Notes under the pieces: generated by a model | The model's input: only the letters and a program-made list of their open reading frames with translations | Database searches by the model: none | What the model was told of the DNA's origin: nothing | Translations under genes and position numbers: made by a program | Assembly: GCF_907164915.1 (NCBI RefSeq) | Contig: NC_061863.1 | Coordinates: forward strand, 4,022,340-4,086,339 | Direction: 5' to 3' | Length of the DNA stretch: 64,000 bases | Source: Impatiens glandulifera | Lineage: Eukaryota; Streptophyta; Magnoliopsida; Ericales; Balsaminaceae | Shown: in pieces, positions 12,554 through 51,220 of the stretch | How positions within the stretch are numbered: the stretch's first letter is position 1 | How the letters are laid out: each line of letters begins with the position of its first letter

Positions 12554-12562
12554 GATGAATAG
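12554..12562. repeat. Left 9-bp target-site duplication
   Basis: GATGAATAG immediately before the left inverted repeat; identical to the 9 bases after the right inverted repeat. Confidence 0.95.
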
Positions 12563-13136
12563 CAGTTCAGATCTTCTGCTACCGATTGCCGTGTTCCCCT
12601 GTGGCGGACCAATCAGATTGCAGCATTATTAATTTAATAATAAATCAATCTGGGCAGGAGACGGAGGGAGGGAGAATCCGGAATCCGGGTTTAGGCCCGG
12701 GTTCACACAAGACGCCGTTAACGGAAGCGCCTGTTAACGCCAGGAAATAATATAATATTCAGATGATAAACAGATAAGATATCTTCGCTCCGGGCACCGT
12801 GTCAGAGGGGAGGGTGAGATACGATGGGAGCGAAGATCTACACGCCCGTTGCACTGACCCTCATGTAAACCCCCCATACCCACCCATGAGAAGACCGCCT
12901 GCCGTTCATGAAAATACACTTACACGTCTATGTAAAGATCGAATTGACAGGGATATTATATTTACGTTTATTAAATATTAATTTAATTTATTAAAAAACA
13001 CATGCAGCGATATAATATTCGCTTCAAGTAATTCAATCTTTTTTTTTCAAGGAATTTTTATTTAATTTTTTTATTTAAATTTTTTTTGCCTCGAGACTCT
13101 CTGGAGCGAAGATATATTTGCTTCAATTCATTCTAA
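12563..13136 (+). repeat. Left terminal inverted repeat of the giant MULE
   Basis: About 575 bp matching the complement of 34164-34738 with few substitutions and one-base indels. It contains a GC-rich outer part, a pair of GTTAACG-like sites (12716-12745), half-sites of the GCGAA/TTCGC motif, and a block built on CATGTAAA...CCCATGAGAAGACC...CATG...TATGTAAAGA (about 12862-12950) that recurs elsewhere in the element. Confidence 0.93.
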
Positions 13137-13834
13137 TAAAAACCTCATGTAAAACCCCTCTACCCACTCATGTAAAGACCGCTTGCCTACCATGTAAAGA
13201 CACTTACCAGTTTATGTAAAGACCAAAATGACATGGATTTTCTATTTCCGTTTATTAAATATTAATTCAATTAATTGAAGATGACATGCAGCAACCGAAC
13301 AATTCTTCGCCTCAATTACCGGCTAGATTTTTTTTCCTCTTTTTTTTTTCCCGTTTATTAATAAATGTTAATTTAATTAATTTAAATTGACAATCAGTAA
13401 ACGACCAAATATTCGCTTCAATTTTGTTTTTCGAGTAGACGATTGAAAGCGAAGATTTTTTCTTTTCAAATATTTTTAGCCTGACGTTCATGTAAAACCA
13501 CCTCCCCTCCCATGAGAAGCCAACTTGCCTGTCATGTAAATTCACTTACCCGTGCATTTACATTCCGCGAATAAATCTTCGCTTCTATGAATAGTTTTTA
13601 TTTTCCATTTAATTTTATTATTATTTTTGGAATTTACGATATCGAACGAATATTTATTCGCTTCCATGAATAGTTGATATAATTTCAATTTCCCGCTACA
13701 AGCCGACTCTCCCTCAATTTCATTTTCATAAGCAACTGTTCATATTCTTCTCTCTCTATCTCCCGGCGATAATCCAAACACTGAACGTCGAAACCCTAGA
13801 TATTTCGTTTATACTACAAGGATTTCTTCTGAAC
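13137..13834 (+). repeat. Left subterminal modules and leader of Ulp1-like gene A
   Basis: Two further diverged copies of the TIR block CATGTAAA..CATG(A/T)(G/A)AA..CATGTAAAGA occur at about 13145-13240 and 13488-13560. Each is bordered by GCGAA or TTCGC half-sites; 13567-13582 is a complete GCGAATAAATCTTCGC palindrome. From about 13690 the sequence becomes pyrimidine-rich and probably forms the gene's 5' leader. Confidence 0.7.
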
Positions 13835-16800
13835 ATGTCGGGTAACCAAGGCAACAACATGGAAGTGGATCATCCCATCGACTCCCGAGAGGTCGTCTTG
13901 CAAGTTTGTAGGAGCATAAACGAAAACGAAACTGCACCCACTCCGGCATCCAACGTCAATCCCAGCACTAAACCAGAGAGGTATGTTCATCTTATTGTGT
14001 TTATACTAATTTTACACATGTTTATTCAATTTATTTCGTATAATACTGATTTATGCTATCCCACCAAAATTAATGACTTCGAGGACCTATGAAAGGAAGA
14101 GGAAGAGAAATCCGAAGACGAATACTAAGTCGTCATCGACTGCTGAATCAGTTTCCACAGTTGCTGTCGAAGCTACTGATGTTGCTGCAGGTACTGATGA
14201 GATTTTACCACCACCTTTTCCCCCTAAAAAAAAAACCAAATGTTATTCCTACCTCCACTCCAACAGTCGATGAAGAGTTACCAGAACCACCCCCAGAAAC
14301 CACTAATATTTCTCCGTCTACTACCCCATTCGATGAAGAGTTTCCCCCATCTCCCCAAAAAACCCAAACCCGCAAGAAACGTAAACTGACATTTCTAACC
14401 AGATCATCACCTCATGGCCTCGCTCAACTCATTCCTCAATTGAGCGTAGAACAGAGGGAAGCCGTGAAGGAAATCGGGTTTGGTTCTCTTCTTACAATGG
14501 GCGTCTCCAAGTGCCTGGCTCATTTTTCCAGACACGTAATCCAATGTTTTGACCCGGATAAGAGTTCTCTGGTGTTGGCCAACGGTGATGAGATCCGTAT
14601 CGATGAAGATCTCGTACAGCTCGTGATGAACCTCCCTAGAGGGGCAATGAACGTAGTCGAGTCCGTTGGGTTGGACAAGACTAAGGACCCTGATTATTTT
14701 AATTTCTTGAGGGATTGGAAGACCAGATGGACCGGGGAAGACTCAAAAGCTCCCGAAACACTTTCTATGATCCCCAAGATATTAAGTAACACAAGTGCAG
14801 ACAACGATTTCAAAATAGACTTCGTTGTCTTTGTTGTCTCAAGTTTTTTATGTCCTGTTCAAAATTCACGAGCCAGGTAAACATGTATTCAAACCTATTA
14901 TATATCTAATTGTATTTTTGAATACTGACAAATGTGTTTTTTTCATTTCAGGTTCAAAATTCTCAAATCCTTAATGGAGGTTGATAAAATAAAGGAACTG
15001 AACTGGTGCCACTTTACACTACAACGATTGGTTGACAGTGTAAGAAGTTGGAAAGAAAAAGCAAGTAAAGATAAAAATCCATATTTCGATGGACCTATAA
15101 CCCTTTTATCGGTAAGTATTGTTGCCTCTCTTATATATGATTTATAGATATGTAATATTTTCTAACATGTTTCCCACTCCTTTACTCCAGATTTGCTACC
15201 TAGATGGTGTTTTTGTGGAAGGTGAACGTATCCCCTACGAAAGAAAATTTCCAATTATCTCCTGTTGGGATGACGTCAGCGTGTTAGAGTTTACCAACTT
15301 AGAAGGTCGTGCCGGTGGTTTTGGGCTGGGCAGGGCAAGGGCGCGCCTAGCAGTTAGACAACCCGAGAATCCAGTTGACTCGGTTGAAGTAAAAGAAGAC
15401 GATAATGAGGTATGTGGAAACAATAAATTGACTCCCATTGTTCTTTATTATCCTGTTTTCAAGATTAATGATCTCTGTTTTTCATAATGTACAGATGTTG
15501 ACATCCAAAATCCTGCAAACTTTTAAAGATACAGCCCAACAGCTGAATTACCTATCAGGGGAGTTGGAGAAACGCAACATCGATCCGAAGCCCTTTTTTG
15601 AGGCCGGTTTCCTGAACCTCAGAGAGTCTGAAGGGTTCATGAAACACTTGAAGGTGGTGATCGATGGTCCGGTTCATGTAGGTGTGGAAGATCCTACAAG
15701 GGAGGCACTTGGGGACACTTTACAGTGTGCGGGCTTGAAAGTCAATAGTCCCCGGGTTGATTACACATGTGAGACTGCATTGGAGGACCATGCAGACAAT
15801 CCAACAACACGGGTTGAACAGAATGATTTAGAGGATGCAGTTATGCCCCATCAAGAAAATCGTTCAGATCACGTGGAACCGAATGATCTCGATGATGCAG
15901 TTCTGCACAATGAAGATCAGTCACTCCCTGTTCAAACGAAAGATGTTGAGGATGTAGGTCATGACATTGACGATGAATCACTCCTTGTTGAACAGGAAGT
16001 TGTACAGGCTGCATTTCAGCCCATTCAAGCCAAGTCACCCCCTTTTCAACCGGACGAACCTGAGGATGCAGTTATGCCCCATCAAGAAAATCGTTCGGAT
16101 CACGTGGAACCGAATGATCTCGATGATGCAGTTCTGCACAATGAAGATCAGTCACTCCCTGTTCAACCGAAAGATGTTGAGGATGTAGGTCATGACATTG
16201 ACGATGAATCACTCCTTGTTGAACAGGAAGATGTACAGGCTGCATTTCAGCCCATTCAAGCCAAGTCACCCCCTTTTCAACCGGACGAACCTGAGGATGC
16301 AGTTCTTCCCAACAAAGATGCCTCACCCCGTGTTGAACCAACTGATCATGAGGGCGAAGTCAAGGAACCGGATGAGGTAACCCCAGTGCAGACACCCACT
16401 CTTGAAGACGATGATCAGGGTGAAGGGAAGGAACCGGTTGAGGAACCCAAAGCGCAGCATGTTGAACCAAATGATCAGGGTGAAGGGAAGGAACATGTTG
16501 CGGAACCCAAAGCTCAGTCTGTTGCACCAAATGATCAGGTTAAAGGCAAGGAAAAGGTTGAGGCTTCTAATGCCGTTGAATCTTCTGAAGATGAAGATGA
16601 AGGTGATGGGGGGGGGATGCATCAACATTAGAGAATATCCTAAGAGGAAGATCACGAAAATTCCTGTGCACCTTCGATCCCCCTACATGCAACATGTTGC
16701 AGATATGTTGGACCACAACATAACCAACAAGGAACAGAGATTAGCCGATTTTGTGTTCGATGAAGACCTGCCTCCAATGTAAGTTACCTCTCATGCTTTT

Positions 16801-17811
16801 CGGAATTTCAAATATGAAATTAGTTAGTTATGGTCTTGTAAATGAATGTATTTTGCAGGGACGTTCTGTACGAAGGTGCACCGGGTAATATCACCCGTAA
16901 GCTATTTCAAACAGTGAAAATGGGTCGCGAAATTGCGAGCGAAGTTGTGGACGCTTGGTCCATAATTGTGCACTTCAAATGCCGTAGGTTGCCAAGGCAT
17001 GAACCACGAATAATATGTTTTTCAACAATTTCACATGTAAGTGCTTCTCTTGTTTTGTTCTATGTATCCTTCAATGTTCATGACTTTGAGTCTCCACCCT
17101 TATTTTCCAGGTTAATCTGCAGTATGATAGGACCTTATTTTGTCAATCCCTTGAAAAAGACATGAGAAACTACCATGTCACAAAAGAAGACATCATCTTC
17201 GCTGACCTGGTATGTACATATCCCTCAATTCCAAGTAACGAGACTGCCATAAAATAACAAATGTTTATGTTCTTTTTGCAGATATTCCTACCTGTCGTCA
17301 CTTCTGGACATTTCTTTCTTGTATGTGTGAATATTAAAGACTCCCAAATAAATGTCCTAGACAACTCCGGTCGTCCGCATAGAATGAAAATTTTGGACAA
17401 GTATGTCCAGTTGAGGAATCAAATCGATAGTTTTTCGACTTTCTTGGAAAGGCAAGGCATACAAAGATTTGCAGAAAAGGTTAAGATGTACAAGATAACG
17501 GCCCCAAAGCTGCCTTGGCAAGACCAAACAAACAAGACCGACTGCGGTGTATATTTAATGAGACATATGGAAACATATAGAGGAAAGATGAAGGGTTGGT
17601 CATGTGACATCAACGAAAATAATGTGAGTGTTTTTTATATGTTATTCTATGACATTTAACAATTTTAAATGTTCTTATACTTTCTCTTGTTCTTTTGAAG
17701 GCCGACGAAGCTTTGAGTACATTGAGGATAAAATATTTATACAGAATTCTTATGTCTGAGCACAATGTCAATAGGTTCAAGTTAAAGACTGCAATTAGAT
17801 CAAGATATTAG
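13835..17811 (+). CDS. Ulp1-like (peptidase C48) protease gene, copy A; frame broken at two homopolymers
   Basis: Exons: 13835-13980, 14084 to 14876 (interrupted, see below), 14952-15111, 15191-15409, 15495-16778, 16859-17036, 17111-17209, 17282-17623 and 17701-17811. A conserved N-terminal domain (GFGSLLTMGVSKCLAHF, then the FKILKSL and CYLDG blocks) and an acidic, proline-containing linker precede a C-terminal Ulp1-type fold. The catalytic His (SGHFFLV), Asp (VLDNSG), Gln (LPWQD) and Cys (TDCGVY) are all present. Ulp1 enzymes cleave SUMO-like modifiers; substrates of transposon-borne ones are unknown. The frame changes at an A10 run (14226-14235), which could be bypassed by an intron 14191-14266 that fits both phase and splice consensus. 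It changes again at a G9 run (16608-16616), for which I find no splice solution. Both may be sequencing errors or real damage. A 231-bp unit is duplicated in the linker. Paralogue of copy B. Confidence 0.82.
15834..16297 (+). repeat. 2 x 231-bp in-frame duplication in Ulp1-like gene A
   Basis: A 77-codon acidic unit (EDAVMPHQENRSDHVEPND...) is repeated in direct succession with only a few base changes. The unit length is a multiple of three, so the frame is kept. Confidence 0.9.
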
Positions 17812-19284
17812 AGTTTTGTATGTGTGATACGGAATTATACTTGTACAGTAATTCTTATGTTCACACAGGTCAATTGACCTATTTTTAATGTATGGATGTT
17901 TGATATTGATTTATAACTTATAATGCAATTCAGATCTTAATGTATGGAAGACAGTTCAGATCTTAATGTATGGAGTTATAATGAATTGCTTATAATGTAT
18001 TGATGTTTGATATGTCTTCTTGTACACATATTTGTGAAATCCTAAACGATGTTATTTTCTTAACTGTATCTTTTAATATTCTTAAACGAAGATATATTCT
18101 TAACATGATGAAACTGATAAACTTGCAACCGTAATATTGACATGATGACCACCTCTTGAAACGGAATTATCTTGTTATGTCTTCTTGTGGCCCTCTTCTT
18201 AACTATCAATTTTCAAATTCCTAAACGAAGATATCTTCTTATGTTCCTTTGTGCAATCCTTATTTTGAAAATCAGAGACGAAGATATCTTCTTCAATATA
18301 TGTTTGCAAATTCCTAAACGAAGATATCTTCTTCACTATATATTTTGAAATTCCTAAACGAATATATCTTCTTAATTTATTTTGGGGTACAGTCGATATT
18401 TCGAAACTAGGAGACGAAGATATCTTCTTCAATATATGTTTTCAAATTCCTAGACGAATATATCTTCTTCACTATATATTTTGAAATTCCTAAACGAATA
18501 TATCTTCTTAATTTATTTTGGGGTACAGTCGATATTTCGAAACTAGGAGACGAAGATATCTTCTTCAATATATGTTTTCAAATTCCTAGACGAATATATC
18601 TTCTTCACTATATATTTTGAAATTCCTAAACGAATATATCTTCTTAATTTATTTTGGGGTACAGTCGATATTTCGAAACTAGGAGACGAAGATATCTTCT
18701 TCAATATATGTTTTCAAATTCCTAGACGAATATATCTTCTTCACTATATATTTTGAAATTCCTAAACGAATATATCTTCTTAATTTATTTTGGGGTACAG
18801 TCGATATTTCGAAACTAGGAGACGAAGATATCTTCTTCAATATATGTTTTCAAATTCCTAGACGAATATATCTTCTTCACTATATATTTTGAAATTCCTA
18901 AACGAATATATCTTCTTAATTTATTTTGGGGTACAGTCGATATTTCGAAACTAGGAGACGAAGATATCTTCTTCAATATATGTTTTCAAATTCCTAGACG
19001 AATATATATTCGTATTGACAAGAAATAAAAAATATAATACGAAGATATCTTCACAACATGTAATGCACCTACCGGAGTTATGTATTGATGTGAATTCAAG
19101 AATGAAAACTCATTTATTACTTCAACTACTGATGTATCAACTTCATCACTCTCATACCCTCACTCTCACTCTCACTCTCACACTCCACTCTCACTCTCAC
19201 CTCTCTCTCTGTTTTGACTCTTTCCTTCCCAAATCTCTATCTACCGGTGTCTTTCCTTCATTCCTTTAGCGTAAAACTCATAAG
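17812..19284. other. Spacer between Ulp1-like gene A and the PMD-like gene
   Basis: Holds the 3' flank of gene A, the 136-bp satellite and, at 19146-19212, a (CTCACT)n/CT-rich microsatellite immediately upstream of the PMD-like start. The CT tract probably lies in that gene's 5' leader. Confidence 0.6.
18200..19010. repeat. 136-bp satellite array built from GAAGATATCTTC motifs
   Basis: About five near-identical units of 136 bp; the landmark GGGGTACAGTCG starts at 18384, 18520, 18656, 18792 and 18928. Each unit holds three smaller blocks, each with a CGAAGATATCTTC or CGAATATATCTTC motif (GAAGATATCTTC is a perfect palindrome), so the satellite appears to have grown from a shorter ~45-bp repeat. 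The left flank (18200-18320) shows more diverged blocks. No coding potential. Confidence 0.92.
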
Positions 19285-20451: not shown

Positions 20452-21009
20452 AGCTTCATTTGTATTGTTGAACAGTTATATTGTTGGTTAATCTGTGCAG
20501 TACTTATGTAAACGGATTATGGAATGTTTTTGTGTATTCAACAATATTATGAAGTTATGTTTGATTATAGTCTGAAGTTATATTTTACATTATGTAGTTA
20601 GTTTATTCTGGAGTGATATAAATCGACTCATTGTCGTTATGTTTGATTCTTTGATTGCAATTTGGATGTCATGATCAATTCAAAGTATAATGTAAAACAA
20701 CTGATCTGTTCATGTAAACCCCTTAGATTGATCCATCGATTGGTTGTTCGCTTCCTTACACAGTATCTAATCAGTAAATCGAACGGACATTTCTTCGCCC
20801 GTAAAACCCTTGAAAACAAAGATGATGTCGCATCCAATCTTTGAAGTTACATATTATTGTTGACACTTTCATGTCATACTGTAATGAATTTGAAAACGAA
20901 GAATCATTCGCCTGTAAGTTTCTATATTAAACACAACATTGTTACGAAACGAAATACTATTCGCTTGATATTCATATTTGAGGTCGACCACATTGAACGA
21001 AAATGTATT

Positions 21010-21270
21010 GAAATTATATTTCATCATTGAAAAAAGAAGTGTGTTTTCGTATAAAACCCTATAAAGAAATCATTTCATATCTATGGATTACTGTATTAAG
21101 CCTTTCATGACATATCAAATCGGAACAGTGTGCAGTATTGTTGTCACATCACAAAAATTAATAAATATTATATTTTAATAAAGTTGCAAATTATGTTTTT
21201 TTTTCAATTTTTAAACACATGAATTCATCTAATTATATATGAAAAGAAGCGAACATATATTCGTGTTCAG
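21010..21270. repeat. Internal direct repeat, copy 1
   Basis: About 260 bp closely matching 22760-23010. Both share TATAAAACCCTATAAAG, the CAAATCGGAACAGTG block, and an ending ATGAAAAGAAGCGAACATA. A shorter diverged piece of the same family is at 22245-22300. Confidence 0.85.
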
Positions 21271-21334
21271 TGAAAATTGCAAATTATTAGGAACTAATTT
21301 GAAGCGAATAAATCTTTGCTTGAATGAATTCTAA

Positions 21335-21480
21335 GTTGACGTACATGTGAATCACACAACCCCTACATGAGAAGACCCTTTACACCTGATGTAAGTACAC
21401 CAACGCTTGTATGTGAAGACCAAAATGATGAATGAATGTGGGAGGAAAATACACGCCGCGAATAAATCTTCGCTACAAAC
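21335..21480 (+). repeat. Internal TIR-like module 1
   Basis: Diverged copy of the TIR block (ACATGTGAATCAC...CCCTACATGAGAAGACC...TGTATGTGAAGACCAAAATGA) in the orientation of the left TIR. It ends in a complete GCGAATAAATCTTCGC palindrome at 21458-21473, the same 16-mer as at 13567-13582. Confidence 0.7.
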
Positions 21481-21843
21481 AATTTTTCAATTTCTATCCG
21501 TTAATCACATTTAATTTTTATTTATAATCGTTACACATCGAATCGGACCAAAACTTACATTTAAAATTATGGCAATGATATGACTTATGGGCAACGTATA
21601 CTTAGCCAGAAGAGTAGATATGATAATACTTTATTATTTTTAACAAATTCGTTATTTTATTAATGTTTAATGACATTTGCATGAAAATATAAATAACAAA
21701 TAATTATTATAATTCGACGTACAAATTTTCATTACAAGTTTCATAAACATTTCCCCGTTTCATAAACATTTGTACATTTTAACAATATTCATCTGCATCT
21801 CCAGCTTCAAGGCATCTCCATTGAAGCAACCACAGCGGATCTC

Positions 21844-22134
21844 TCACGCATAACTGGGGTCATACACATGTTGAGTTATCTCTTGAGATGTTTTCCATCC
21901 CAGGGAATCTCCCACAGTTGGCGCTTCCCACCAGCAGTGTACACGCATGATCTTCATTTGATCGGTAGTTTCTACTTGAGTTACCAAGCATTCGTGGTAA
22001 CTGAAGATGTTTTCCACCAGTTGATCTTCATTGTACAAGTTTTCCATCACAGAGAATCTCCCAAATGATACATCCCAACAAACTATATGAAAAAAACACA
22101 CACTCTCAACAAAAACGCTCAATAGATATTTCAT
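21844..22134 (-). CDS. Possible small gene in the MULE, function unknown
   Basis: An uninterrupted 96-codon frame on the minus strand, starting ATG at 22132-22134 (MKYLLSVFVESVCFF). A good TATA box (GCTATAAATGTAG) lies about 30 bases upstream of the ATG, an unusually short distance for a translation start. The frame looks compositionally plausible (acidic, Trp-rich towards its end) but resembles no family I know. It could be the remains of a captured exon or chance. Confidence 0.3.
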   Translation of the reverse strand: MKYLLSVFVESVCFFHIVCWDVSFGRFSVMENLYNEDQLVENIFSYHECLVTQVETTDQMKIMRVHCWWEAPTVGDSLGWKTSQEITQHVYDPSYA

Positions 22135-22499
22135 GCTGCCGACGAAGATTGTTCATATAATCCCTACATTTATAGCAAACAGAAAATCTGTTTTCTTCAT
22201 AAAATATTTAGATCTATTGATTTAGAAAAAGTAAATTTCCCGTGATGAAATATCAAATCCGAACAGTGTGTAGTCACTTTGTCACATCATGAAAAAGTAA
22301 TTTCATTCACGAAAAAGTAATAACACTTAATAATATAAAATAAAATAAATAATTCAATATTGTCATTCACATTATATTAGATAAAAAATTATTTCAACAT
22401 TAATAAAAATATTTTCATGAATAATTATAAAATTATATTCAATATAATACTATAATAGTATTGCTATACGAACAGGGAAGAGATCTGAGCTAAACTAAC

Positions 22500-22710
22500 T
22501 CAATAAGCGAAGAAATCTTCGCCACAATTGTTTTCGACCTGTCCCCCGTGTACACCCCCCATACACAACAATGAGAAGCCCACTTGTCTGTCATGGAAAG
22601 ACACTAAACCGTGTATGTGTAGACCAAAATTAAATGTATTTTAAATTTCCCTTTATTTCATATTATATGAAATTATTATAACTGACATTAAGCGAACAAA
22701 TATTCGCTCA
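22500..22710 (+). repeat. Internal TIR-like module 2
   Basis: TIR block copy (GTGTACACCCCCCATAC...ACAATGAGAAGCCC...GTCATGGAAAGACAC...TATGTGTAGACCAAAAT) in left-TIR orientation. It starts with the palindrome GCGAAGAAATCTTCGC (22507-22522) and ends with AGCGAACAAATATTCGCT (22691-22708). Confidence 0.7.
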
Positions 22711-22759
22711 AATGACCTGGCGGATCAGTAGGCAGTCCTTTGTTTTGTCACATCATGCA

Positions 22760-23010
22760 GAAATTATATGTCATCATTGAAAAAGAAGTGTGTTTTTGTA
22801 TAAAACCCTATAAAGAAATCATTTCATATCTATGGATTCAGTAAAAGTATTAAGCCTGTCATGACATGTCAAATCGGAACAGTGTGCATTATTGTTGTCA
22901 CATCACAAAAAGTTAAAAATAGTATATTTTAATAAAGTTGCAAATTATTTTATTTTTCTATTTTTACACACATGAATTCATGTAATTATAGATGAAAAGA
23001 AGCGAACATA
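22760..23010. repeat. Internal direct repeat, copy 2
   Basis: Second copy of the 21010-21270 unit, about 1.75 kb downstream and in the same orientation. Together they bracket the small minus-strand reading frame and two TIR-like modules. Confidence 0.85.
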
Positions 23011-23519
23011 CCATCGAATCAAATGTCATTCCTTTAGATTGGATACGATCTGTTAGATTGGCAGAGCGAAGATTTGTTCGCTTATTCAGCATTGAGAAGC
23101 AAATAGTTGTTCATTTTGTGCGAATTTTTTTTCAAATAATGTGAAACAAGAAAGACATGTACTAAGCGAAGATATATTCGTACATTGCGGAGTTCTGCAC
23201 GAATACATCCTCGTCTATTGTAGTATGTTACTTTTCATAATGCATAATTACCTTTCACACTACAAAAGCGAATATCGCTTCGACTCGTACGAAGTTCATG
23301 AGAAACTCCTTATTCATGTTTGTGAAATCCGATACGGCCTCATGAAAATACATTCACACTAACAGTGCACTTTGCAAAGTAAAACTGTAAAACATCTGAA
23401 GCCCGAATCCGGCCGTAATACACCCAGGTTATTCTACCATCTGACCTAGCGCTTTCGTCTCCGGCATTTCGACTACGAACCCATTTCTATTCCGGTTAGT
23501 ATCTTCGGCTCCAGCGAAA

Positions 23520-26500
23520 ATGGTAAGAAGTGTTTACGGTTGCATGCTTGTGTCTATTTCGTTTTCTTAGTTTAGGTCGTTCGAATCTAAATGTGACTTT
23601 AACATCTCAGAATCAGGATTCCGATATGCAAATAGTTCCATATACTGAATCCACGACTGAAGTGAACACACTAAGGTAATTACGCGAATGTTACAATTGT
23701 TAAAATTTGACTATATTTGGATTAGGTAAGTAATCCAATTTGCTAATGATAATTTAGTGTTCAACAAAGGAAACGAAAACCCGATGCATCAGGCGCGCCC
23801 ACGACACCACTGGATATTCTGGCCAACGCGGCGAATGAAGCACTTAGTGAGAACCAGGTTCAGAAGAAAAGAAGAAGGACTCGTGACCCTGATGTCGATT
23901 TCAAGAGCAGAACCTCTCCATCGGGCCTTCATCACCTGATTAACAGGTTATCTGAAGAACAGAAGCAGGCTGTGAGGGACATAGGATTTGGTTCCCTTCT
24001 GTCACTTGGCATATCAAAATGCCCACTTCAATTCTCACGGTGCATTGTGAGTCTATTCAATCCCAGAAGGAGGAGCATCGTCCTACACAGTGGAGAGGAG
24101 ATGCAGATTGATGAAGAGGATGTTCAATGTGTATTGAACATACCCAGAGGTGAATTAGTTGTGGCAGAGTGTTTAGGAAATCACACGGACGACAAGGTGT
24201 ACAAGGACCATCTCACGGCGTGGAGAAGGAGATGGGGATTCGAGAACAGTGGAGGTCCTTCAACCTACCAAATGCCTGACAAAATTCTACAGAACACAGA
24301 AGGAGACAGTAACTTCAAGATGGACTTCGTGGTGTTTGTTGTATCCAGTTTTTTGTGGACATCCCAAAATCCACAGTGCAGGTAAACCCAAAGAACCTAG
24401 CATTAATTCTGTGATCTCATTTAGAACTTCAATATCATTTTACATGGCTTGAGTCACTACTTTTTTGTTTTCAGATTCAAAGTACTGAAATCCCTCCAGG
24501 ATGTATCTAAAATCAAAGACTACAACTGGTGCAAGTTCACGTTAGACGGGCTAGTCGACAGTGTTTATAAGTGGAAAGCAAAGAAGACATCCTATTTCCA
24601 TGGACCATTAACCTTTCTTTTGGTGAGTGTAGAAATCTATTGGCTGGAGGTTGTCCATTCATAATTTTTTGATGACTTTGAACGTAACATATATTTGTTC
24701 ATGCTAATGTATCAGTTGTGCTACTTGGACCGTGTGGTTGAGTTCAAGGTAAACAGTAAGATCTCAAGGAGTTTTCCTATTCTAGGATGCTGGGACGAGA
24801 AGAAGATGTACGAAAGGGTTGAGTATGAGGCTGCACAGGGGGGGTTTGGACATGGTAGGGTGGTTGCTCGCATAGCCATTCCGAATGAGCAACCACCGAT
24901 GCAACAAAATGTGCAGCCAACACCACCACAAACTGGAGATGACCATCCAACTGAGCATGCTCCAATTACACAAAACATGGCGTCATGTTTGAGGAAGGTT
25001 GCTGCCGCTGCCGAAGAATTGGCACAAGGGGCTAAATATCTGAATGAGATGCACCAGATAAACGCCATGGAACTTGTACAATCTGCATTTGAGCCATTGG
25101 CCACGGTGCTAAACTCCAATGCAATCCTGAGGGAAGGCTTACAGCGGAGTCTGGACCAAAACAAAAAGCAGCAGCCTAGAGGAAGTGGCATTAACCCCAA
25201 CACGGAAGCCACCACCCAAGGGAAAGGGAACACCCTTCCTACCAACAACCCTGCCAACACCAATCCAACGGCCCCATCGAACAAGAACACATTCACCCCC
25301 ACCACCGAAACGAAGACAAAAGCCAACCACCCACCAACGGCCCCATCCAACAAGAGCACACTTTCTCCCAACATTCAAAAAAATATCAACGCAGACAACC
25401 AAGCCAAATCCAACACCCATCCTCTAAACACCCTAGACCACACACAACCCACCCTCACACCAACACCCCAATCCCACAAGAACCCCCTTCCACTCAAAAC
25501 AGATACCAAAACCCCAGCCCCACCCCCTCCAATGGCACAAGCCAAAGCCAACTCCCTTCCTCCAATCAAAACCACACCCCCTCCAGTGGCACAAGCCAAA
25601 GCAAACCCCATTCCTCCACTCAAAACCACACCCCCTCTAATGGCACAAGCCAAAGCCAACCCCATTCCTCCACTCAAAACCACACCCCCTACAATGGTAC
25701 AAGCCAAACCCAAAGCAAACCCCATTCCTCCACTCAAAACACCAGCCCCTACAATGGCACAAGTCAAACCCAACCCCATTCCTCCACTCAAAACCACACC
25801 CCCTCCAATGGCACAAGCCAAAGCCAACCCCATTCCTCCACTCAAAACACCAGCCCCTCCAATGGCACAAGCCAAACCCAAAGCCAACACAATTACTCCC
25901 AAAACAGAAACCAACACGAACACCAGCGCTCCAACCACCCCAGCCTTGCCTTCTACCCAAATTATCCCAAATAAAGAGGAAGCCGGACCTTCAAAGGCCT
26001 TAAATGTTCAAAGAAAAGTCCCCCGAAATTTGAAAACTGATTGGTTAACCGATGTCATCAAAACCGAAACCAACAAAAACTCCCCTTCTTTGGCGATAGT
26101 TAAAAAGGAACCTGAAGAATGCATCTCCAGTCTACCACCGCCACTTCAAACGGCCTCTTCTTTGGAGATAGTAAAGAATGAACTGGAAGAATGCATCTCC
26201 AGTCTACCATCGCCACTTCAAACGGCCTCTTCTTTGGAGATAGTAAAGAATGAACTGGAAGAAGGCATCTCCAGTATACTACCGCCACTTCAAACTGGCT
26301 CTTCTCGTCCAAACATGCAAACCAAAGAATGGCTTAAAGCATTGGAATTGCCTCAAGCTTTGAAAACCCCATATTTCAATAAAATGTTTAGGGATGAAAA
26401 AAAACTAACAAACTTTCAGAAGATTTTCGTGGGTTTCGTATTTGCTGGAGGACTTGATCCAAGGTAATGTTTCCTGCAAATGCTTAATTATTCCTAAAAA

Positions 26501-27545
26501 ATAGGATTTGTACACCATTTTGAAACATGTTTTGCTGTTTTCATGCAGTGAAATGTTATTTATTGCGGATAACCTATGTCTACACGTGACGCGCGGGGAC
26601 ATGCTTACAATGGCTGATCAAACCTGGGTAGACAGTATGATTATTGACGTTTGGTCATACATTTTGCACGACCTTTCTAGGAAAAATGTCAAACGTCGTT
26701 ACAAGAAGATTTTCTACACAACCGTGCTCACCGTAAGTTGTACTAGCACTGTTATTTATCAATTATGTTATTCTTGTGAGACTAAAGACTGCTGTAAACA
26801 GATTTTTCGTGAAGGTGGGATAACTACGCGAGAAAAATTCAATGACAGGTTCTGTCTAGAAGGTCGGGCTTTCCAAATTTCAAAAATGGACCTCTGGGAA
26901 GTGGACCTCGTAAGTACATCTCTGGCTGTCATACCTTATAATATCATTTACCACTCAGTTCAAATCTAATCTTTTTTAATTCTATCTACAGTTGTTTTTC
27001 CCAATCATTGATGACAGACATTTCTACCTTGTTTGCTATAACTTCATACAAAGGCAATTTCAAGTAATTGATAACCGGCAGTCACCTATGCAATCGCCCT
27101 TCGAAAGAAGATATAAGAATGCACAAATCTTGGTATGACACTACAATTAAAATTTAAAATAGTTCAATTTTGGAATTCTAGTAGCACTAAAATGCATTAC
27201 ATAATGTTGTTTGTAATGATGTATCAGGATGACTACATTCAACAATATATGAACGACGTAGACCCCGTTCTTGCTAAAAAGTATGGCGGTTTGGAAAAGA
27301 TATGTCTGAAATTGCCGTGGCAGGATTCAAAGAATTACACTGACTGCGGCATTTTTTGCATGAGACACATGGAGACGTATGAAGGTGAGGTGAAGGGGTG
27401 GAAAACTGGCTTTGGAGTTAAAAGAAATGTGAGGAACCAAATAAAGACATTGAGGATGGAATACTGTTGGCGTGTCATTGGCTCGGAGCTCAACAAGGCC
27501 AGGAGCAAGGTCTACAATTCCTGCCGTAAATGGATAAGTCAATGA
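23520..27545 (+). CDS. Ulp1-like (peptidase C48) protease, copy B, intact
   Basis: Ten exons: 23520-23522 (ATG only), 23611-23675, 23758-24381, 24475-24622, 24716-26463, 26549-26732, 26802-26909, 26992-27132 and 27228-27545 make nine listed blocks plus any leader exon. All are GT-AG in consistent phase and encode 1112 aa. A basic N-terminus (KRKPD, QKKRRR) precedes the same GFGSLLSLGISKC domain as in copy A. A long Pro/Thr/Lys low-complexity linker follows, with repeats of MAQAKANPIPPLKTTPP (about 25530-25880) and three 24-residue repeats (26100-26300). The C-terminal protease has the expected H970 (DRHFYLV), D987 (VIDN), Q1039 (LPWQD) and C1047 (TDCG). Catalytic competence as a SUMO-type protease is likely from family knowledge; its role in the element is not known. 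No frame damage is seen. Confidence 0.9.
25530..25890 (+). repeat. Pro-rich minisatellite in Ulp1-like gene B
   Basis: Seven or so imperfect in-frame copies of a ~51-bp unit encoding MAQAKANPIPPLKTTPP and variants. Strand composition is strongly C-rich, which creates a long meaningless reading frame on the opposite strand. Confidence 0.85.
26100..26305 (+). repeat. 3 x 72-bp in-frame repeat in Ulp1-like gene B
   Basis: Three direct 24-codon units related to SSLEIVKNELEECISSLP, just before the protease-domain exons. The unit preserves frame. Confidence 0.85.
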
Positions 27546-28630
27546 ATTAGGAACTGTATACATATTGTGTAATTTAATTTTACAAAGAATTTTAGTTCAC
27601 ATGAGTACAATAATGTACTCATAGACAGATGGGGTAATTAAACTATTCCTATAATTGTAATGATTTATTGTTACAATAAAGAATATGTTGTGTAATTTCA
27701 ATTCTCAAAAATTGTTACTTCACATCCTCACACTAATGAACGTGTATACATGAAGTGTGTTTTTTATGAAATTTGATTTTCAAATACTTGTTCAATTATG
27801 TGTTAAATGAATAAATTAAGTGAAATAAACATGAGCCGCATAAATATTCGCTTCAAAGACCTTCTCTTCATAAAATATGTATGTGAAGCCTCGAATTTCA
27901 TGAAAGAAATATGAAGAGAATAAATATTCGCCTCTAATACATATTTTCGATTAAGCGAATACATATTCGCCTCAAATTATTGATAATGTAAAGCAACCAT
28001 CTCATCCATGAGATGCGGGATGACTTGTCATGTCACTGCACTTACCCCGACATGTAAATACTAGTTTCAACATAAAGATCAATTTCATCAGACAAATATG
28101 AGGAGAATAAATATTCGCCCGAGATACATGGTGAGGTTCAAGCGAACACATATTCGCCTCAGTTTTATGTTTCATTTTCTCAATAAAACACTAAAAGGAT
28201 ACTTAATATTAGTTCACTGGGGGCGAATAAATATTCGATTGATTTAGGTGTTTGTAATTTTTTAGAAATGAATTAGTGTGGTCATTCATTTGGTATTTCA
28301 TAAAACTTCGCATGCATACATTCGACCTTATTCTTTGTTTCAAATCCACCGTACATACAATACTATATACATATCAGATTTCACATGAAACTGGAATTCG
28401 ATAGTTGAGATGACAAAAGAACAGTGAACGGAGTATTGGCGTCCATGCTGAAACTTTTGTCCCATTGTTGAGGAGTTGAGAACTGAGGAGTTGTCGTTGG
28501 CATTGCACTTGATGGATGGAAAGGAATATCAAATTTATTTAAAAGTATGTTATTATATGAATATTAATAACACAATTATTAGTAAAGAAGGTAAGTCAGC
28601 AATTTCATACCGGAATATGTGATTCACTAG
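27546..28630. other. Convergent spacer between Ulp1-like gene B and the transposase
   Basis: Contains the 3' flanks of both genes, a TIR-like module in left-TIR orientation (about 27980-28070) and a cluster of the palindromic motif: 27955-27970 (GCGAATACATATTCGC), 28142-28157 (GCGAACACATATTCGC), 28223-28237, and half-forms at about 27835, 27915 and 28105. No gene recognised. Confidence 0.7.
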
Positions 28631-31132
28631 TTATTCTTGTTGATTTTCGTTTTCTTGAGTTCTTCTCCAGTCCACTTTCCTTCTCTTACCAGACTTTGTT
28701 GGCTTCTTAGTTTTCATTCCTTTTGCTTGAACAGGGGCACCCTCGGCAAAACGTGATAAACCAGTTGGTGGAGTTTGCATATTTATACTCTCCTGCAATT
28801 TTTTATCCACAAATGTGCACTGGCTCAGCATGATTTCTTTGACATGATTGTAAGTGTCATCTCTTTCGGCTGCCTTGGTAAATAAATGCATGGACAACCC
28901 ACACAAATCTCTGTATCTTATGTTATGAAGCTCACTCGGATCAACATTAGTACTGTCCACGATTGGATCAGTTCCAAATATTCCATCTTTGGCTGTTCTT
29001 GTCCACCTCTTCAATATCAACGCCGGAGGAATCTTCAACACGTCAATCGTTGTGAAAATCTTTAGGATGTGAGCACACAAAATCCCTCCAAATTCAAATT
29101 TACAGCAGCTACACTCGATATTCTTATCGTCATTCTTATGAACTGTAACTGTATGAGAGCATCTCCTAGTGTGGGGTGTTACCTTGTATTTTCTGTGTGT
29201 GTCGACATCCTCTAACATTTCTACACCACAATCATGCGACATAAACCATTGTTGTTCAAAGCACTTGAAGACCTCTGGGGTGTAAACTTTGCAGGCATCC
29301 TTTAAGATCAAAACTGGATAGTTAAGACTTGGTTGGCTGGTAATTGATTTGAAATCAGCCTTCAACACATCATATCTTCTTTCATCGAGTAGTCTTTCAA
29401 AGTGTTTGAAAAATTCTAAATACTTGTGTTTGTAGGAGCAGTACCGTTTCAACATACTGTTCATACTCTCACTTCTCTGTGTTGTCGTCATATCAGCACA
29501 AAACATTTGTCGTCCATACACTAATGCCCACTTTCGCCTGATGCTAAACATGCGTTTCAACCAATCGTTGTTTTCAAGCCCGTAGTTTGTCAACATTTGA
29601 TTCCAAGCTTCAACAAACTCTATCTCTTCTTCAAAATCATATATACACGAAGAAAAATCCTTAGAAAAATCTCTGAAATTATGGAACACCGAGCTAAGAT
29701 GTATGGCTGCATTTTGAAATATGTGCCAAATACAGAGACGATGATTTGTTTCGGGCCATTGAGACGCCAAGGCCTTAGCCATGGCCGCGTCTTGATCTGT
29801 AAGAATGGTTTTTGGTTTTTTCCCATGCATAGCTTTGGTGAAAGTCTCAAACAACCAATCAAAAGTGATCGCAGTTTCATCGTATAATAGAGCTGCTCCA
29901 AAAAGAATTGATTGTTTGTGATGATTGACACCTACAAAAAGCGCAACTGGACGACCTTCATTATTCTTCTTGTATGTGGTGTCAAAACTGACCACGTCTC
30001 CGAAGTATGAATAATCGGACCGCATGTTGGAATCACACCAAAAAATATTCGTTATCAAATCGTCCGCATCAAGTTGAAAAGCATTATAAAAACCAGGATC
30101 ATTGGATTGTTTTTTCTGCAAATACTCTAATACACCCCCTGTTTCCCCAAAATTACACTCTCTGGTTCTTTTCGTGCGCAGGTAATTTTTGTAATCCTCA
30201 GGAAGAAAACCTAGATTCTCCCTTCCACCGATTTGTTTAGACATTAGAGCATGTGATGACTTAGGAGGAATTCCCACGTTAGTGGCCATCTCGATATGTA
30301 AGCCTGCAACTGCAGAAATATTCCTATGGCATCTATACAGATGAGTTTTCTTTGGACTTGCAAGAGGATGACTATGATCACTAATAAAATTTACCACTTG
30401 GAACTTTCCATTGTCTGCCCTCTTTATCCTCAATTTCGCTTCACAACAGAACCGAGTCACAGAACGTCTACGTTTCACATAGACATCACGTTTGTCCTTT
30501 CCCCGTTCACCCTGTGCACTACAACAAAAAACTCTATCCAGTATTTTACCCTCCTTGTCTACATGTTTTGAACTGCGCCTTATACCAAATCCTATTAGTT
30601 TAGCGTATGCTAAGTAGAATACGTAGCCTTCTTCTTCACTCTCAAATTCTCTACCGAAAAGTGGAATTAAGTTGGATTCGATGTCCTCCAAAGGTTGGCC
30701 GTTTCCATCGAAATTCAATTGACGACGACAAGTAGCAGATTCGCTGTTCAGTTTGAACACGTGGAAATTTAGGTTCAACTAACCAGAACTTGTAGATTAT
30801 TGGAAAATGAAAACAATATAAGCGAAGAAAGCTTCACTTCAACAGTATGAAGATTGTAATATCAGGCGAATATAGTTTCGCTTCATAAGATATTATCTAA
30901 TAATATATTAGTGAAGAGATCTTCGCTTACATGTGCACTACAAAAATTGGAGAAGTTAAACAATGTTACCTTAAATCAATAATATCATTCTCGTCCATAT
31001 CATTCTCGCTGATACGTATTCCTTCCTGATAATCAAACAGAACAGAACATTTCATGTCGAGTATTCAAAAAACATAGAAAAGGTTGGGACGAAAAGTAAA
31101 GAAGGTGTAGATGACATTCAAAAACATACCAT
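28631..31132 (-). CDS. MULE transposase of the FAR1/FHY3 (FRS) type
   Basis: Three coding exons on the minus strand: 31130-31132 (ATG only), 30970-31025 and 28631-30743, giving 723 aa. The long frame has no in-frame ATG at its 5' end and meets a stop just upstream; the acceptor at 30744-30745 joins the two small upstream exons in phase. Domains: FAR1 DNA-binding WRKY-GCM1-type zinc finger (about residues 55-145; EEEGYVFYLAYAKLIGFGIR, DHSHPL), MULE transposase core with D274 (VSFDTTY), D336 (LTDQD) and E445 (TQRSES), and a SWIM zinc finger C564-C566-C576-H578. The tail is basic (KSGKRRKVDWRR). It would bind the element ends and catalyse cut-and-paste transposition. No frame damage, so it may be active; it may also act on related non-autonomous copies. 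Confidence 0.93.
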
Positions 31133-31702
31133 TTTATAATTTAGGAAGATGGATTGATATTATAATGAAGTCTCCGGCGAAGGAGAGGTCGATGGTAGAC
31201 AATGTAGTATAGCTCCGGCGAAGAAATGGTCGTACAGTAGAGAGAGAGAAGAGTACAAAGTTGTCTAGCTTAGCAGCATGGCTTGCTGCATGCAGCATTT
31301 AATGAAAAGGTGGCAGGTGTTAGGTGGCGGTGAGGTGACTTGTTAAAAAAATTATTTCATTTTAATAATTAAATGACAAAAATTATTATGAAATTAAATT
31401 AATAAATCAATCAATCAATCAGTAAGCGAAGATTTCTTCACATTATTATTTTGACAATTGTTTTACAAATATTATTTTGACAGTAGTTTTAAAAAATATT
31501 AATTATTTATCAAATTTATACTTCAAGTTATACAGTATTTCTTAATGTTTCAAGATTTAGTTAAATATAAGGCTCATCTTTTAAAAAAAAACAATTCGAA
31601 GAACAAAAAAGATAATTCTGAAATCAAATATGACATTGAATTTTCAAGAATGCAAAATATTCAAATAATTTGTAAGTAACAAATTAAACCGACATGTGTC
31701 TA
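30744..31702. other. Transposase 5' region and BRCT-gene 3' flank
   Basis: Contains the first two introns and leader of the transposase (leader upstream of 31132) and about 570 bp up to the BRCT-gene stop. Motif copies occur near 30820, 30862 and 30905 (GAAGAGATCTTCGCTT) and near 31424. Nothing else coding. Confidence 0.6.
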
Positions 31703-32873
31703 TTACAAAAACAAAGGCTGCAAATCACAAGCAGCAATGGATTCTAGCAAGCTTGTGTGAGGAACACCAAACACATCCAAATATGTCTTCAGAGGATTCT
31801 CTGCCTCAAATACCCAAACAAGTTCATTAACATCGTGCCGAGACTTGTCGTATACAACTATAGTTTTGTCGTCCTCGGGCTCGACAAATGGATTCTCCAT
31901 TTCTTTAGTTGTACCTCCTCCAGCAATTACAAACCCCATAAGATCAAGTTTGTAAGCCGGGATGAATTCCCCTGCAAATATGAAGGTGTAACTGTCGAAG
32001 AGTTTGGGCAGCTGAAAGAAAATACAAAACATTATTAGTAATCATGGACAATTGAATATCATATGGAGGAGTAAGAATAAGACAAAACTTACATTGTTCA
32101 AATACCGCATTCTGCCAGCTCTTGGACCGCCCACAGTCCCATGATTATCTCGCTGCACCTCGTATGGTTCCTCGTCCACGTAACAGTTAAATCTGATTGA
32201 TGATTTTATCCCTGTATAAAAGCAATAGGTGTTTTTAGTTTCATATATGTTAAAATGAATATTGAGTTAACAGTAAAGGGTTAAGAATAACAGAGTCTCA
32301 CAATCAATGGTAAGGACCCAACTCCCGTTCAATATGCCCTTCAATACTTTGATAGTGCGACCGCATCCACCATTAGAATCAGTGGATGCTATGACGTGGG
32401 TCACATCGTCTCTCCACCTCATTGACACCGTGGCACCACATGTGTTAGCATATTGTTGCATCAAGTGCTGTTTAAGAACAATCATAAATATTTCAGTTAA
32501 ACAGGATGAAAACTTAAACAATATGGAAAAAAAGGGAGAAATGTCACGAAGAGTACTATCTCTTCACTTGTTAATTGATTTGGGCATAAAATCCAGTCTT
32601 TGTCAAAGTTTTGGACGGATGCTGAGGCAGTTGCCTGCACGTGCATTAAAAAAAACGGTCCTTGTTAGTATGTACTAGGGTTTCATGGAAATAATATCCC
32701 AAAACATAACAATAGGTAATTTATCCTAAATAACATTGATTTACAGTGAAGGTGACATTTTGAGAGTAGGGTTTCCTAAAGATTAAAGAGACAACAACAT
32801 CACATAACATAATCTAGTGTAGTAGTTCCTTAATCCTAAATATGAAAAGTTACTATTCAGGAATACGTACCAT
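31703..32873 (-). CDS. Captured tandem-BRCT protein related to plant BRCA1/BARD1 C-terminus
   Basis: Five coding exons on the minus strand: 32871-32873 (ATG only), 32557-32634, 32302-32467, 32093-32211 and 31703-32011. All junctions are GT-AG with matching phase; the product is 224 aa. BRCT 1 (about residues 14-105) shows DWILC...LTSEE, VTHVIAST, CGRTIKVLKGILNGSWVLTIDW and VDEEPYEV. A GPRAGRMR linker follows, then BRCT 2 (about 122-224) with PKLFDSYTFIFAGEF, VIAGGG, IVVYD and LLESIAACDLQP. This is the C-terminal pair of plant BRCA1/BARD1, which binds phosphoproteins at DNA breaks, without RING or PHD parts. The Ser-Gly expected before LT-x-EE is Pro-Asn and the last BRCT Trp is replaced by Ser, so phosphopeptide binding may be altered. 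The open frame and intact splice sites argue for retention rather than simple debris. Confidence 0.85.
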
Positions 32874-33299
32874 TGTGGAGTCGTGAAGATGTGGATTCAG
32901 GTTCGGTCGACGGGGAGCCGGTTACGAATCGCCGTGAAAAGGAGGCAGGAAGAGAGAGAGATGAATCGGGCGGAAATGATTATAAAATAATCATATTATG
33001 GGGTATATATATTCATGTAACCGGGGCGAACATGTCTTCTTTCGAAAAGCGACTATTCATTCCATGTAACATGACACAGGGACCAGGGGCGAATAAGTGT
33101 TCTCTCGAGAAGCGACTATTCAATCCATTTTACATGGAACGTGGTCTAGGCGAACAAATATTCTTTTCCAGAAAAAAAATTTAAATAAATAAAAAAAGTA
33201 ATGAATTAATTGAAGCGAATATTATATCGCTGCATGTCATTTTAAATTAATTAAATTAACATTTATTAATAAACGAAAAACAAAAAATATTAAAAAAAA
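32874..33299 (-). promoter_or_regulatory. BRCT-gene leader and 63-bp subterminal repeats
   Basis: Upstream of the ATG on the minus strand is a pyrimidine-rich leader (32880-32960) with a TATA-like ATTTTATAATC near 32975. Beyond it, 33015-33165 holds about two and a half copies of a ~63-bp unit (landmark GGGGCGAA at 33023 and 33086) containing GCGAA half-sites and TTCGAAAAGCGAC. Confidence 0.55.
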
Positions 33300-34163
33300 T
33301 CTAGCCGGTAATTGAGGCGAAGATTTGTTCGGTTGCTGCATATCATCTTCAATTAATTGAATTAATATTTAATAAACGGAAATATAAAATCCATGTCATT
33401 TTGGTCTTTACATAGACGGGTAAGTGTCTTTACATGGTAGGCAAGCGGTCTTCTCATGGGTGGGTAGGGGGGTTTTACATGAGGTTTTTATTAGAATTAA
33501 TTTAAGCAAATATATCTTCGCTCATGAAGGTCTCCAGCCAATAAAATTAAAATAAATAAAAAAAGGAAAACAATAGAAAAGTAATTGAGGCGAAGATTTG
33601 TTCGGTTGCTGCATGTCATCTTCAATTAATTGAATTAATATTTCATAAACGGAAATATAAAATCCATGTCATTTTGGTCTTTACATAGACGGGTAAGTGT
33701 CTTTACATGGTAGGCAAGCGGTCTTCTCATGGGTGGGTATGGGGGTTTTACATGAGGTTTTTATTAAAATTAATTTAAGCAAATATATCTTCGCTCATGA
33801 GGGTCCCCAGCCAAAAAAAATGAAATAAAAAAAAAAAGTAGCCAAGGAATTGAAGCGAAGATTTGTTCGGTTGCTGCATGTCATCTTCAATTAATTGAAT
33901 TAATATTTAATAAATGGAAATATAAAATCCATGTCATTTTGGTCTTTACATAGACGGGTAAGTGTCTTTCCATGGCAGGCAGGCGGTCTTCTCATGGGTG
34001 GATTGAGGGGTTTATATGATGTTTTTATTAAAATTAATTGAAGCAAATATATCTTCGCTCCAGAGTGTCTCGAGGCAAAAAAAATTAAATAACAAAATTA
34101 ATTACAATTAATTAAAAAAAATATAAATTAATTGAATTAATATGTAATAAACGGAAATATAAT
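33300..34163 (-). repeat. Amplified right subterminal repeat (about 3 units of ~270 bp)
   Basis: Three direct units start near 33314, 33587 and 33852 (landmark GCGAAGATTTGTTCGGTTGC), each carrying the inverted TIR block (GGTCTTTACATAGACGGGTAAGTG...CTTCTCATGGGTGG...TTTACATGAGG). A partial fourth, shorter unit lies at 34060-34200. The left end has fewer copies, so the two subterminal regions are unequal. Confidence 0.88.
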
Positions 34164-34738
34164 TATTAAAATTAATTGAAGCAAATATATCTTCGCTCCA
34201 GAGAGTCTCGAGGCGAAAAAAAATTAAATAAAAAAATTAAATAAAAATTCCTTGAAAAAAAAAGATTGAATTAATTGAAGCGAATATTATATCGCTGCAT
34301 GTGTTTTTTAATAAATTAAATTAATATTTAATAAACGTAAATATAAATTCCCTGTCAATTCGGTCTTTACATAGACGTGTAAGTGTATTTTCATTGAAGG
34401 CAGGCGGTCTTCTCATGGGTGGGTATGGGGGGTTTACATGAGGGTCAGTGCAACGGGCGTGTAGATCTTCGCTCCCATCGCATCTCACCCTTCCCTCTGA
34501 CACGGTCCCGGAGCGAAGATATCTTATCTGTTTATCATCTGAATATTATATTATTTCCTGGCGTTAACAGGCGCTTCCGTTAACGGCGTCTGGTGTGAAC
34601 CCGGGCCTAAACCCGGATTCCGGATTCTCCCTCCCTCCGTCTCCTGCCCAGATTGATTTATTATTAAAATAATAATGCTGCAATCTGATTGGTCCGCCAC
34701 AGGGGAACACGGCAATCGGTAGCAGAAGATCTGAACTG
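34164..34738 (-). repeat. Right terminal inverted repeat of the giant MULE
   Basis: Inverted counterpart of 12563-13136. High identity between the two ends, together with the perfect target-site duplication, indicates a young insertion. Inward of this end the subterminal block is amplified (see 33300-34163). Confidence 0.93.
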
Positions 34739-34747
34739 GATGAATAG
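34739..34747. repeat. Right 9-bp target-site duplication
   Basis: GATGAATAG immediately after the right inverted repeat; identical to the left copy, with no mismatch. Confidence 0.95.
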
Positions 34748-51134: not shown

Positions 51135-51220
51135 ACTTCACGTTTCACAATGGAGCTTCACGTTTCGCGATGGGCCAAAATTTCTTATTTTTTATAGTTA
51201 ATCATGACTTCATTTGGGAA

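Follow-up and report, generated by a model that had tools for sequence, protein, structure and literature searches.

We analyzed a 64,000-nucleotide stretch of the Impatiens glandulifera genome (contig NC_061863.1, positions 4,022,340 to 4,086,339; here called the window) and find that positions 12563-34738 are occupied by one bounded Mutator-like element (MULE) of 22,176 bp. An earlier reading of the same DNA, made without database searches (the sequence-only reading), had described inverted ends of ~575 bp, a perfect 9-bp target duplication, and five genes within a single element, and all three features are borne out. The terminal inverted repeats (TIRs) align over 577 nt at 97.2% identity, and GATGAATAG is perfectly duplicated on the two sides. 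Between the ends lie two Ulp1-like genes (Ulp1a and Ulp1b) and a DUF7745-like gene on the plus strand, together with a transposase gene and a tandem-BRCT gene on the minus strand (Table 1). Introns of the gene models are of the GT-AG type.

Table 1. Features of the element, in window coordinates.
Feature	Position	Strand	Remarks
Target-site duplication GATGAATAG, left copy	12554..12562		
Left TIR, 577 nt, bears palindrome sites	12563..13139	+	97.2% vs right TIR
Left subterminal region, diverged TIR-like repeats	13140..13834		Palindrome at <=2 mismatches: 13294, 13400, 13448, 13566, 13645
Ulp1a: N-terminal domain, repetitive linker, C48 protease end	13835..17811	+	
Two-version stretch: Ulp1a linker and protease half, extends into tandem array	15950..19200		
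Tandem array, 136-bp unit, 6 copies	18194..19011		18 variant palindromes ACGAA-N6-TTC
DUF7745-like gene, single exon, 388 amino acids	19285..20451	+	
Palindrome-rich spacer (sites 20735 to 23267)	20452..23519		TIR-like stretches 22539-22721, 21300-21497
Ulp1b, 9 exons, 1112 amino acids, tandem-repeat linker	23520..27545	+	Open in window copy
Palindrome cluster, Ulp1b-transposase spacer	27835..28239		
FAR1/MULE/SWIM transposase, 3 exons	28631..31132	-	Palindromes 30821, 30865, 30910 in intron before main exon
Tandem-BRCT gene, 5 exons, 224 amino acids, BARD1/BRCA1-type	31703..32873	-	
Right subterminal repeats, ~270-bp units, with palindrome sites	33191..34162		
Right TIR	34163..34738	-	
Target-site duplication GATGAATAG, right copy	34739..34747		

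The transposase, which consists of a main exon (28631-30743) and two short 5' exons, matches the MULE (PF10551; 1.7e-29), FAR1 (9.6e-21), and SWIM (7.7e-8) domains of Pfam, and the arrangement of FAR1 at the N terminus and SWIM at the C terminus places it, as far as domains define the class, in the Jittery/FAR1 group. A D-D-E motif, read by eye, appears to be present, and a search with this protein against plasmids gave no match. The protein had been called intact, but the last ~14 codons of the window copy are in a different frame from 11 of the 12 other aligned copies described below; the twelfth (c4) has many indels and allowed no judgment. The two Ulp1-like genes are likewise both present, with Ulp1b open but Ulp1a interrupted in the window copy by a frame break at a run of G near 16610 in the simplest gene model. 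Splice routes around this break exist, the best-ranked of them with weak acceptors. The two are paralogues, with 51% amino acid identity in the N-terminal domain. The 3' part of Ulp1a matches C48 above the cut-off (4.9e-10), and Ulp1b does so just below it (0.0018; 18.6 bits against 20.7), so that the element carries, in Pfam terms and with this reservation for Ulp1b, the Ulp1 domain of the KIU type of protein. Catalytic His, Asp, Gln, and Cys residues, read by eye, are apparently retained in both proteins. A protein search with residues 40-345 of Ulp1b returned nothing at E<=0.001.

The remaining plus-strand gene had been labeled PMD/DUF7745-like, and the plant mobile domain (PMD) half of that label was overstated. 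PMD (PF10536) scored 11.4 and 12.5 bits where 34.9 are required, with E values of 0.17 for this open reading frame (ORF) and 0.084 for Ulp1b. The DUF7745 match itself (2.5e-4) stayed, at 20.6 bits, below the cut-off of 26. A protein search with this ORF found nothing at E<=0.001, and its AlphaFold model, made from the single sequence, had a pLDDT of 36.

The sequence-only reading had proposed a search of the genome with the ends as a check, and the absence of other copies sharing its ends and gene order as grounds for abandoning it. Such copies were found in the assembly, which totals 653.9 Mb over 1110 contigs. With the left TIR as query, 157 matches came from the best 40 of 1211 candidates, and we read 13 further copies (given c-numbers), which with the window copy make 14. 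Eleven of these, the window copy included, are 21.9-23.0 kb long and form the full-length set; two others measure 14.9 and 13.2 kb, and the last (c14) measures 2.5 kb and, having no mapped gene, was left out of gene counts. Of the 11 full-length copies, 10 have all five genes, in one order; c11 lacks the DUF7745-like gene. The 13.2-kb copy is without Ulp1a and the DUF7745-like gene, and the 14.9-kb copy without Ulp1b, while the transposase and BRCT genes are each present in all 13 gene-bearing copies. With a tolerance of 3 bases in the end positions, the target duplication matched at 9 of 9 positions in eight copies and at 8 of 9 in two; no clear duplication was seen in the other four, one of which has an N gap and another of which is a whole contig. 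The window element is one copy of a large FAR1-type MULE family with long TIRs and common ends and gene order, and because these recur in the genome, the element is more than a chance assembly. A 2.5-kb element at C4:12448294-12450810 has the same ends, several matches to the subterminal repeats, and 9 palindrome sites of the kind described below.

The family also bears on two further words of the earlier description, young and complete. The window copy is 95.5-97.4% identical to the 12 other aligned copies (all but c14), and this difference of 2.6-4.5% does not fit a young element; identity between the TIRs is not usable for age, since the element is of the cut-and-paste kind. Complete is apt in that the element is bounded and has five genes, but no copy that we read is complete in coding terms. 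On the exon model of the window copy, the BRCT frame is open in 10 of 13 aligned copies and the transposase is open up to its C-terminal end in 8 of 13, while the DUF7745-like frame is open in 4 of the 11 copies that have the gene and Ulp1b in 3 of 12. Four of the 12 copies that have Ulp1a, the window copy not among them, have a 5' part that reads through the G run, and in none of the 13 are all five genes open together.

The genes appear to have been kept working by selection. Omega was estimated over 12 copies with codon-bootstrap limits (c4, an unplaced contig with many indels, was dropped here and from the motif-variation counts). The values were 0.42 (0.27-0.70) for the transposase, 0.38 (0.29-0.50) for Ulp1b, 0.44 (0.24-0.83) for the DUF7745-like gene, 0.45 (0.22-0.96) for the whole BRCT gene, and 0.56 (0.40-0.80) for the part of Ulp1a that encodes the protease. 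When distinct changes were simply counted, a cruder test, P was 0.008 for the transposase, 0.0016 for the DUF7745-like gene, 2e-6 for Ulp1b, and 0.043 for the Ulp1a protease part. Two results weigh against the anti-silencing reading developed below. The N-terminal part of Ulp1a is unconstrained among the copies (omega 0.99, 0.72-1.41; count P 0.76), and the count for the whole BRCT gene is not significant (P 0.10). In the 12 copies, the last BRCT exon had an omega of 0.32 (0.12-1.36), and 100 of 2000 bootstrap replicates reached 1 or more. In a set of 20 sequences made up of the 12 copies and eight exons hand-picked from stop-free places, omega was 0.29 (0.15-0.64), 7 of 2000 replicates reached 1 or more, and the count P was 0.013. 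The earlier suggestion that the cargo serves the element gains support in this general sense, because omega is below 1 for four of the five genes; the particular roles it proposed, in SUMO- and PMD-linked silencing and in repair of breaks, are conjectural.

The gene that had been read as tandem-BRCT from its letters matches the BRCT profile at 4.2e-10, with two BRCT parts in its product, and is of the BARD1/BRCA1 type; the nearest solved structures in the PDB are those of BARD1 (5.6e-15) and then BRCA1 (2.4e-11). The RING and PHD parts of a full BARD1/BRCA1 protein are missing from the spliced product of 224 amino acids, which has BRCT matches only. In plant BARD1/BRCA1 a PHD-like domain is expected ahead of the BRCT region, and one of the ten protein relatives found (P0002) has such a domain (PF13771) in that place. 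The best seven relatives are 42-46% identical to the element protein. In an alignment with eight relatives, seven of them from named plants, the element protein is altered at 14 of the 57 columns on which the relatives all agree, among them the Trp of the second BRCT, compared with 0-5 of 43-48 columns for each other row. These comparisons indicate a diverged, shortened BARD1/BRCA1 relative whose copies are now conserved among themselves, and suggest an origin from a host gene. Genome searches for the host parent did not find it: a BARD1-type query gave places that fit copies of the element, and the PHD part was found in three places, with no BRCT exon in 2.5 kb at the best one.

It is possible, although we consider it improbable, that this is ordinary capture of the Pack-MULE kind and that the BRCT and DUF7745 pieces are passive passengers from host genes. 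The homology to BARD1/BRCA1-type proteins, the BRCT-only piece, the altered invariant columns with the lost Trp, and the nonsignificant whole-gene count would all be in keeping with this. The constant presence of the BRCT gene and its open frame in 10 copies would not, and neither would the last-exon omega in the larger set, eight of whose 20 sequences were picked as stop-free. Genome-wide, the BRCT query gave 529 matches (exons counted apart) from the best 150 of 1576 candidates; these 150 places match the last exon at 90-99% identity, and 141 of them are without a stop. The DUF7745-like gene had 3050 candidates, the best 106 of them at 85-100% identity, with 88 of the 106 stop-free; both stop-free shares come from the best candidates only and are biased upward. 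At 41 of these 106 places a listed BRCT copy lies 6.9-15.1 kb downstream on the opposite strand, as in the window, whereas random placement on C1-C7 gave 0.13 such pairs on average and at most 1 in 200 trials, which also speaks against passive passengers. Many genomic DUF7745-like copies have a longer frame (429-461 amino acids, 95-96% identity), and a number of these have no BRCT neighbor among the matches listed; the gene may also reside in another element.

A second prominent feature of the element is a dispersed palindrome, which the sequence-only reading did not mention and which we think is the better clue to mechanism. It was found by k-mer comparison of the element with its flanks, and tests on the window are thus not blind. 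In a scan of four-base gapped palindromes (256 words by 21 spacings, single-letter words skipped), CGAA-N6-TTCG ranked first in the element, with 18 occurrences against 0.24 expected when repeats were masked (log10P -27) and 21 unmasked, and fell outside the top eight in the four other stretches of the window. One of the 21 lies in the DUF7745-like exon, and the flanks hold one further site. A gap of six accounts for all 21, with three occurrences at a gap of 10, two at 11, and none at any other gap from 0 to 12. Sites within 2 mismatches give the consensus TTGAAGCGAA-N-ATAT-N-TTCGCTTCAA.

For the extended form AGCGAA-N6-TTCGCT, 22 sites at <=1 mismatch were found in the element, of which 4 are in the TIRs, 15 intergenic, and 3 in a transposase intron, with none in 10,597 nt of exon or in 41.8 kb of flanks. 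By similarity of their flanking sequences the 22 fall into 14 clusters, and the variant ACGAA-N6-TTC recurs in the tandem array beside Ulp1a. There are 9-23 sites in each of the 14 copies and a single site in all of their flanks together (<=600 bp each). Across the genome the exact form occurs 2177 times, compared with once for a reversed control, and the version with a spacer of 5 occurs 19 times, compared with twice for its reversed pattern. The palindrome is therefore concentrated in the noncoding parts of the element, although looser matching blurs the picture, with 39 sites in the element (1 exonic) and 2 in the flanks at <=2 mismatches and 52 versus 14 at <=3. Among the copies, 25 sites varied less than other intergenic windows (0.0125 versus 0.0268; 44 of 5000 draws as low), a difference that weakened to 86 of 5000 without the window copy and 162 of 5000 without the window copy and c8. 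Eighteen of the 25 were less variable than their own flanks, and seven were more variable. Because clusters of the palindrome also occur outside the copies read (e.g., C1:21337441-21351509 and C1:10319305-10331464), it may be common to other element families.

What the palindrome does can be read in several ways. That it has no function for the element, being old copies of a palindrome-bearing repeat or the site of a host factor, we regard as unlikely. The TIR and subterminal repeats are clearly duplicated, and the low variation at the sites is modestly significant and depends in part on the two most different copies, as would be expected in that case. On the other hand, the spacer has a constant length of 6 but a variable sequence, the shift to a spacer of 5 reduces the genomic count from 2177 to 19, and exons are free of sites at <=1 mismatch. 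A stronger contender, possible but in our judgment doubtful, is that the palindrome is the site of the FAR1-type transposase, arisen subterminally and spread by repeats, and now used in transposition or autoregulation rather than anti-silencing. Sites are found in both TIRs, in the subterminal repeats, and in the transposase intron, and some internal sites lie within TIR-like stretches; FAR1 is annotated as a DNA-binding domain, and the transposase, which has to attach to the element's ends in any case, might be what binds here. This account has difficulty with the many sites up to ~10 kb from the ends, in most spacers and in the array by Ulp1a, and with the 14 clusters that differ in flanking sequence.

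We tentatively prefer, at somewhat short of an even chance, a reading in which the family has a resident five-gene kit and one of its proteins reads the palindrome and lifts silencing in the manner of VANC. VANC proteins of VANDAL elements bind short noncoding motifs, often in tandem arrays, leading to loss of methylation (PMC5735166, PMC10398659), and VANC genes with an Ulp1 domain (KIU) are reported in a 2026 review (PMC13317346). The element fits this pattern because it has Ulp1 genes, repetitive linkers, the motif, and the array, and the motif is short and repeated in noncoding DNA as in the VANC/KIU system. The Ulp1 genes would then be VANC/KIU-like anti-silencing factors. One element protein, most likely of the Ulp1 type and through its N-terminal part, would bind, as a dimer, the palindromes of both the spacers and the tandem array. 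Binding would lift silencing from the element so that transposase is made, and the Ulp1 domain might strip SUMO, or a similar modifier, from the occupied sites. For the BRCT protein, a role at chromatin or at the breaks made in transposition is conceivable, and this last step is the weakest part of the proposal.

Several observations count against this anti-silencing reading, besides those on selection, loose matches, variable sites, and the transposase given above. DUF1985, a domain drawn for VANC, gave a weak match in Ulp1b (E 0.16) and none in Ulp1a, and when the profile of the Ulp1 N-terminal domain was compared with DUF1985 ORFs from a neighboring element, no match was found. The element is also FAR1-type with 577-nt TIRs, whereas VANDALs belong to another MULE group with degenerate TIRs. 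A further point concerns the two-version stretch. From 15.95 to 19.2 kb the window copy differs from c1 and c6 by ~6-23% in 150-bp windows, compared with 0-5% on either side; in 600-bp windows c8 sides with the window copy, and c3, c7, and c12 side with c1 or c6. This mosaic indicates that the Ulp1a half has been exchanged. That the exchange took in the array as well, in a single block at 15.8-19.2 kb, was our first reading, but it fits less well, since the array core (18200-18900) differs between the window copy and c8 by 12-32% where it can be aligned, with different copy numbers and poor alignment, whereas the two differ by 0-4% through the Ulp1a half. Joint exchange of protein half and array is suggestive only, and for that reason we give less weight to the anti-silencing reading, and more to transposase binding and to a palindrome without function.

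A more ambitious version, which we consider quite unlikely as a whole, would be a self-contained program in which two Ulp1-type anti-silencing proteins read the palindrome and its array variant, protein halves and neighboring targets are exchanged between lineages, a BARD1-like BRCT protein of old host capture is required for transposition, and the palindrome code is shared by several families. Short of this, the palindrome is a candidate target for sequence-specific anti-silencing outside VANDALs, in a long-TIR MULE group; with its two versions, the Ulp1a half is a natural experiment on the evolution of such proteins and their targets. Capture of host genes by transposons is common, but there are few demonstrations of captured genes kept under selection as part of a transposon. 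In this family, every gene-bearing copy read has a host-type BRCT gene.

Other features of the window were also noted. A ~250-bp direct repeat (91%; 21010-21257 and 22760-23010, 1.75 kb apart) lies in the spacer before Ulp1b. We dropped a composite of two elements, each with its own Ulp1 gene, as the TIR-like stretches are merely 71-76% similar to the end regions; the left-end orientation of those at 22539-22721 does fit a composite. The models of Ulp1b (23520-23522), transposase (31130-31132), and BRCT (32871-32873) begin with an ATG-only coding exon followed by a phase-0 intron, and a common leader for the three was rejected, the matches being just 9-15 bases and mainly pyrimidine runs. Outside the element, a phospholipase-D-type gene (PLD_C, 5.4e-29) has its stop codon 280 bp before the start of the left target duplication. 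A second element (50498-55893) has 113-bp inverted ends (88%), and no 8-10-bp target duplication was found for it. It contains DUF1985 matches in two frames at 52332-53571 (8.5e-7 and 2.2e-8, each narrowly missing the family cut-off) and a dense palindrome of its own, TTCGCGAA, present 15 times and nowhere else in the window (log10P -30).

In the open-licence literature, which most subscription papers lie outside, we found no report of a Pack-MULE together with BRCT or of a Mutator-like element together with a plant mobile domain and Ulp1, and queries for Mutator-like with BARD1 and for MULE with BRCT and transposase gave nothing but works unrelated by title. With PMD-C MULEs, in which PMD-C is fused to the transposase in several grasses and Amborella (PMC5418596), the element shares a gene with a possible relationship to the plant mobile domain; here, this gene is a separate DUF7745-like ORF with a weak PMD match. 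Like Pack-MULEs and other cases of transduplication, it has a host-like, intron-bearing gene piece inside a MULE. Unlike Pack-MULEs, which have no transposase, it retains that gene in 13 of 13 gene-bearing copies, and the host-like piece is equally constant and under apparent purifying selection.

Closer likenesses are found with two other systems. Jittery-like/FAR1-type MULEs share the FAR1 N terminus and SWIM domain; ULP sequences occur in MuDR-like MULEs and some Jittery-like families of grapevine and melon, and in MULEs of rice and Arabidopsis (PMC2528002). The element differs from them in its 22 kb, five genes, and 577-nt TIRs (Jitvine-1 and -2 of grapevine are 11.9 and 14.4 kb [PMC2528002], and TIRs of 39-292 bp are listed for the plant subgroup of group 36 [PMC6446971]), as well as in its 9-bp duplication and its two Ulp1, DUF7745-like, and BRCT genes. 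Compared with the VANC proteins of VANDAL/Hiun and with KIU (Kaonashi), it belongs to another transposase group and has long TIRs, a different motif (a spaced palindrome with CpGs), and at most a weak DUF1985 match. What it shares with them are proteins borne by a transposable element with repetitive, variable regions, an Ulp1 domain as in KIU, and short motifs repeated in noncoding DNA and in tandem arrays.

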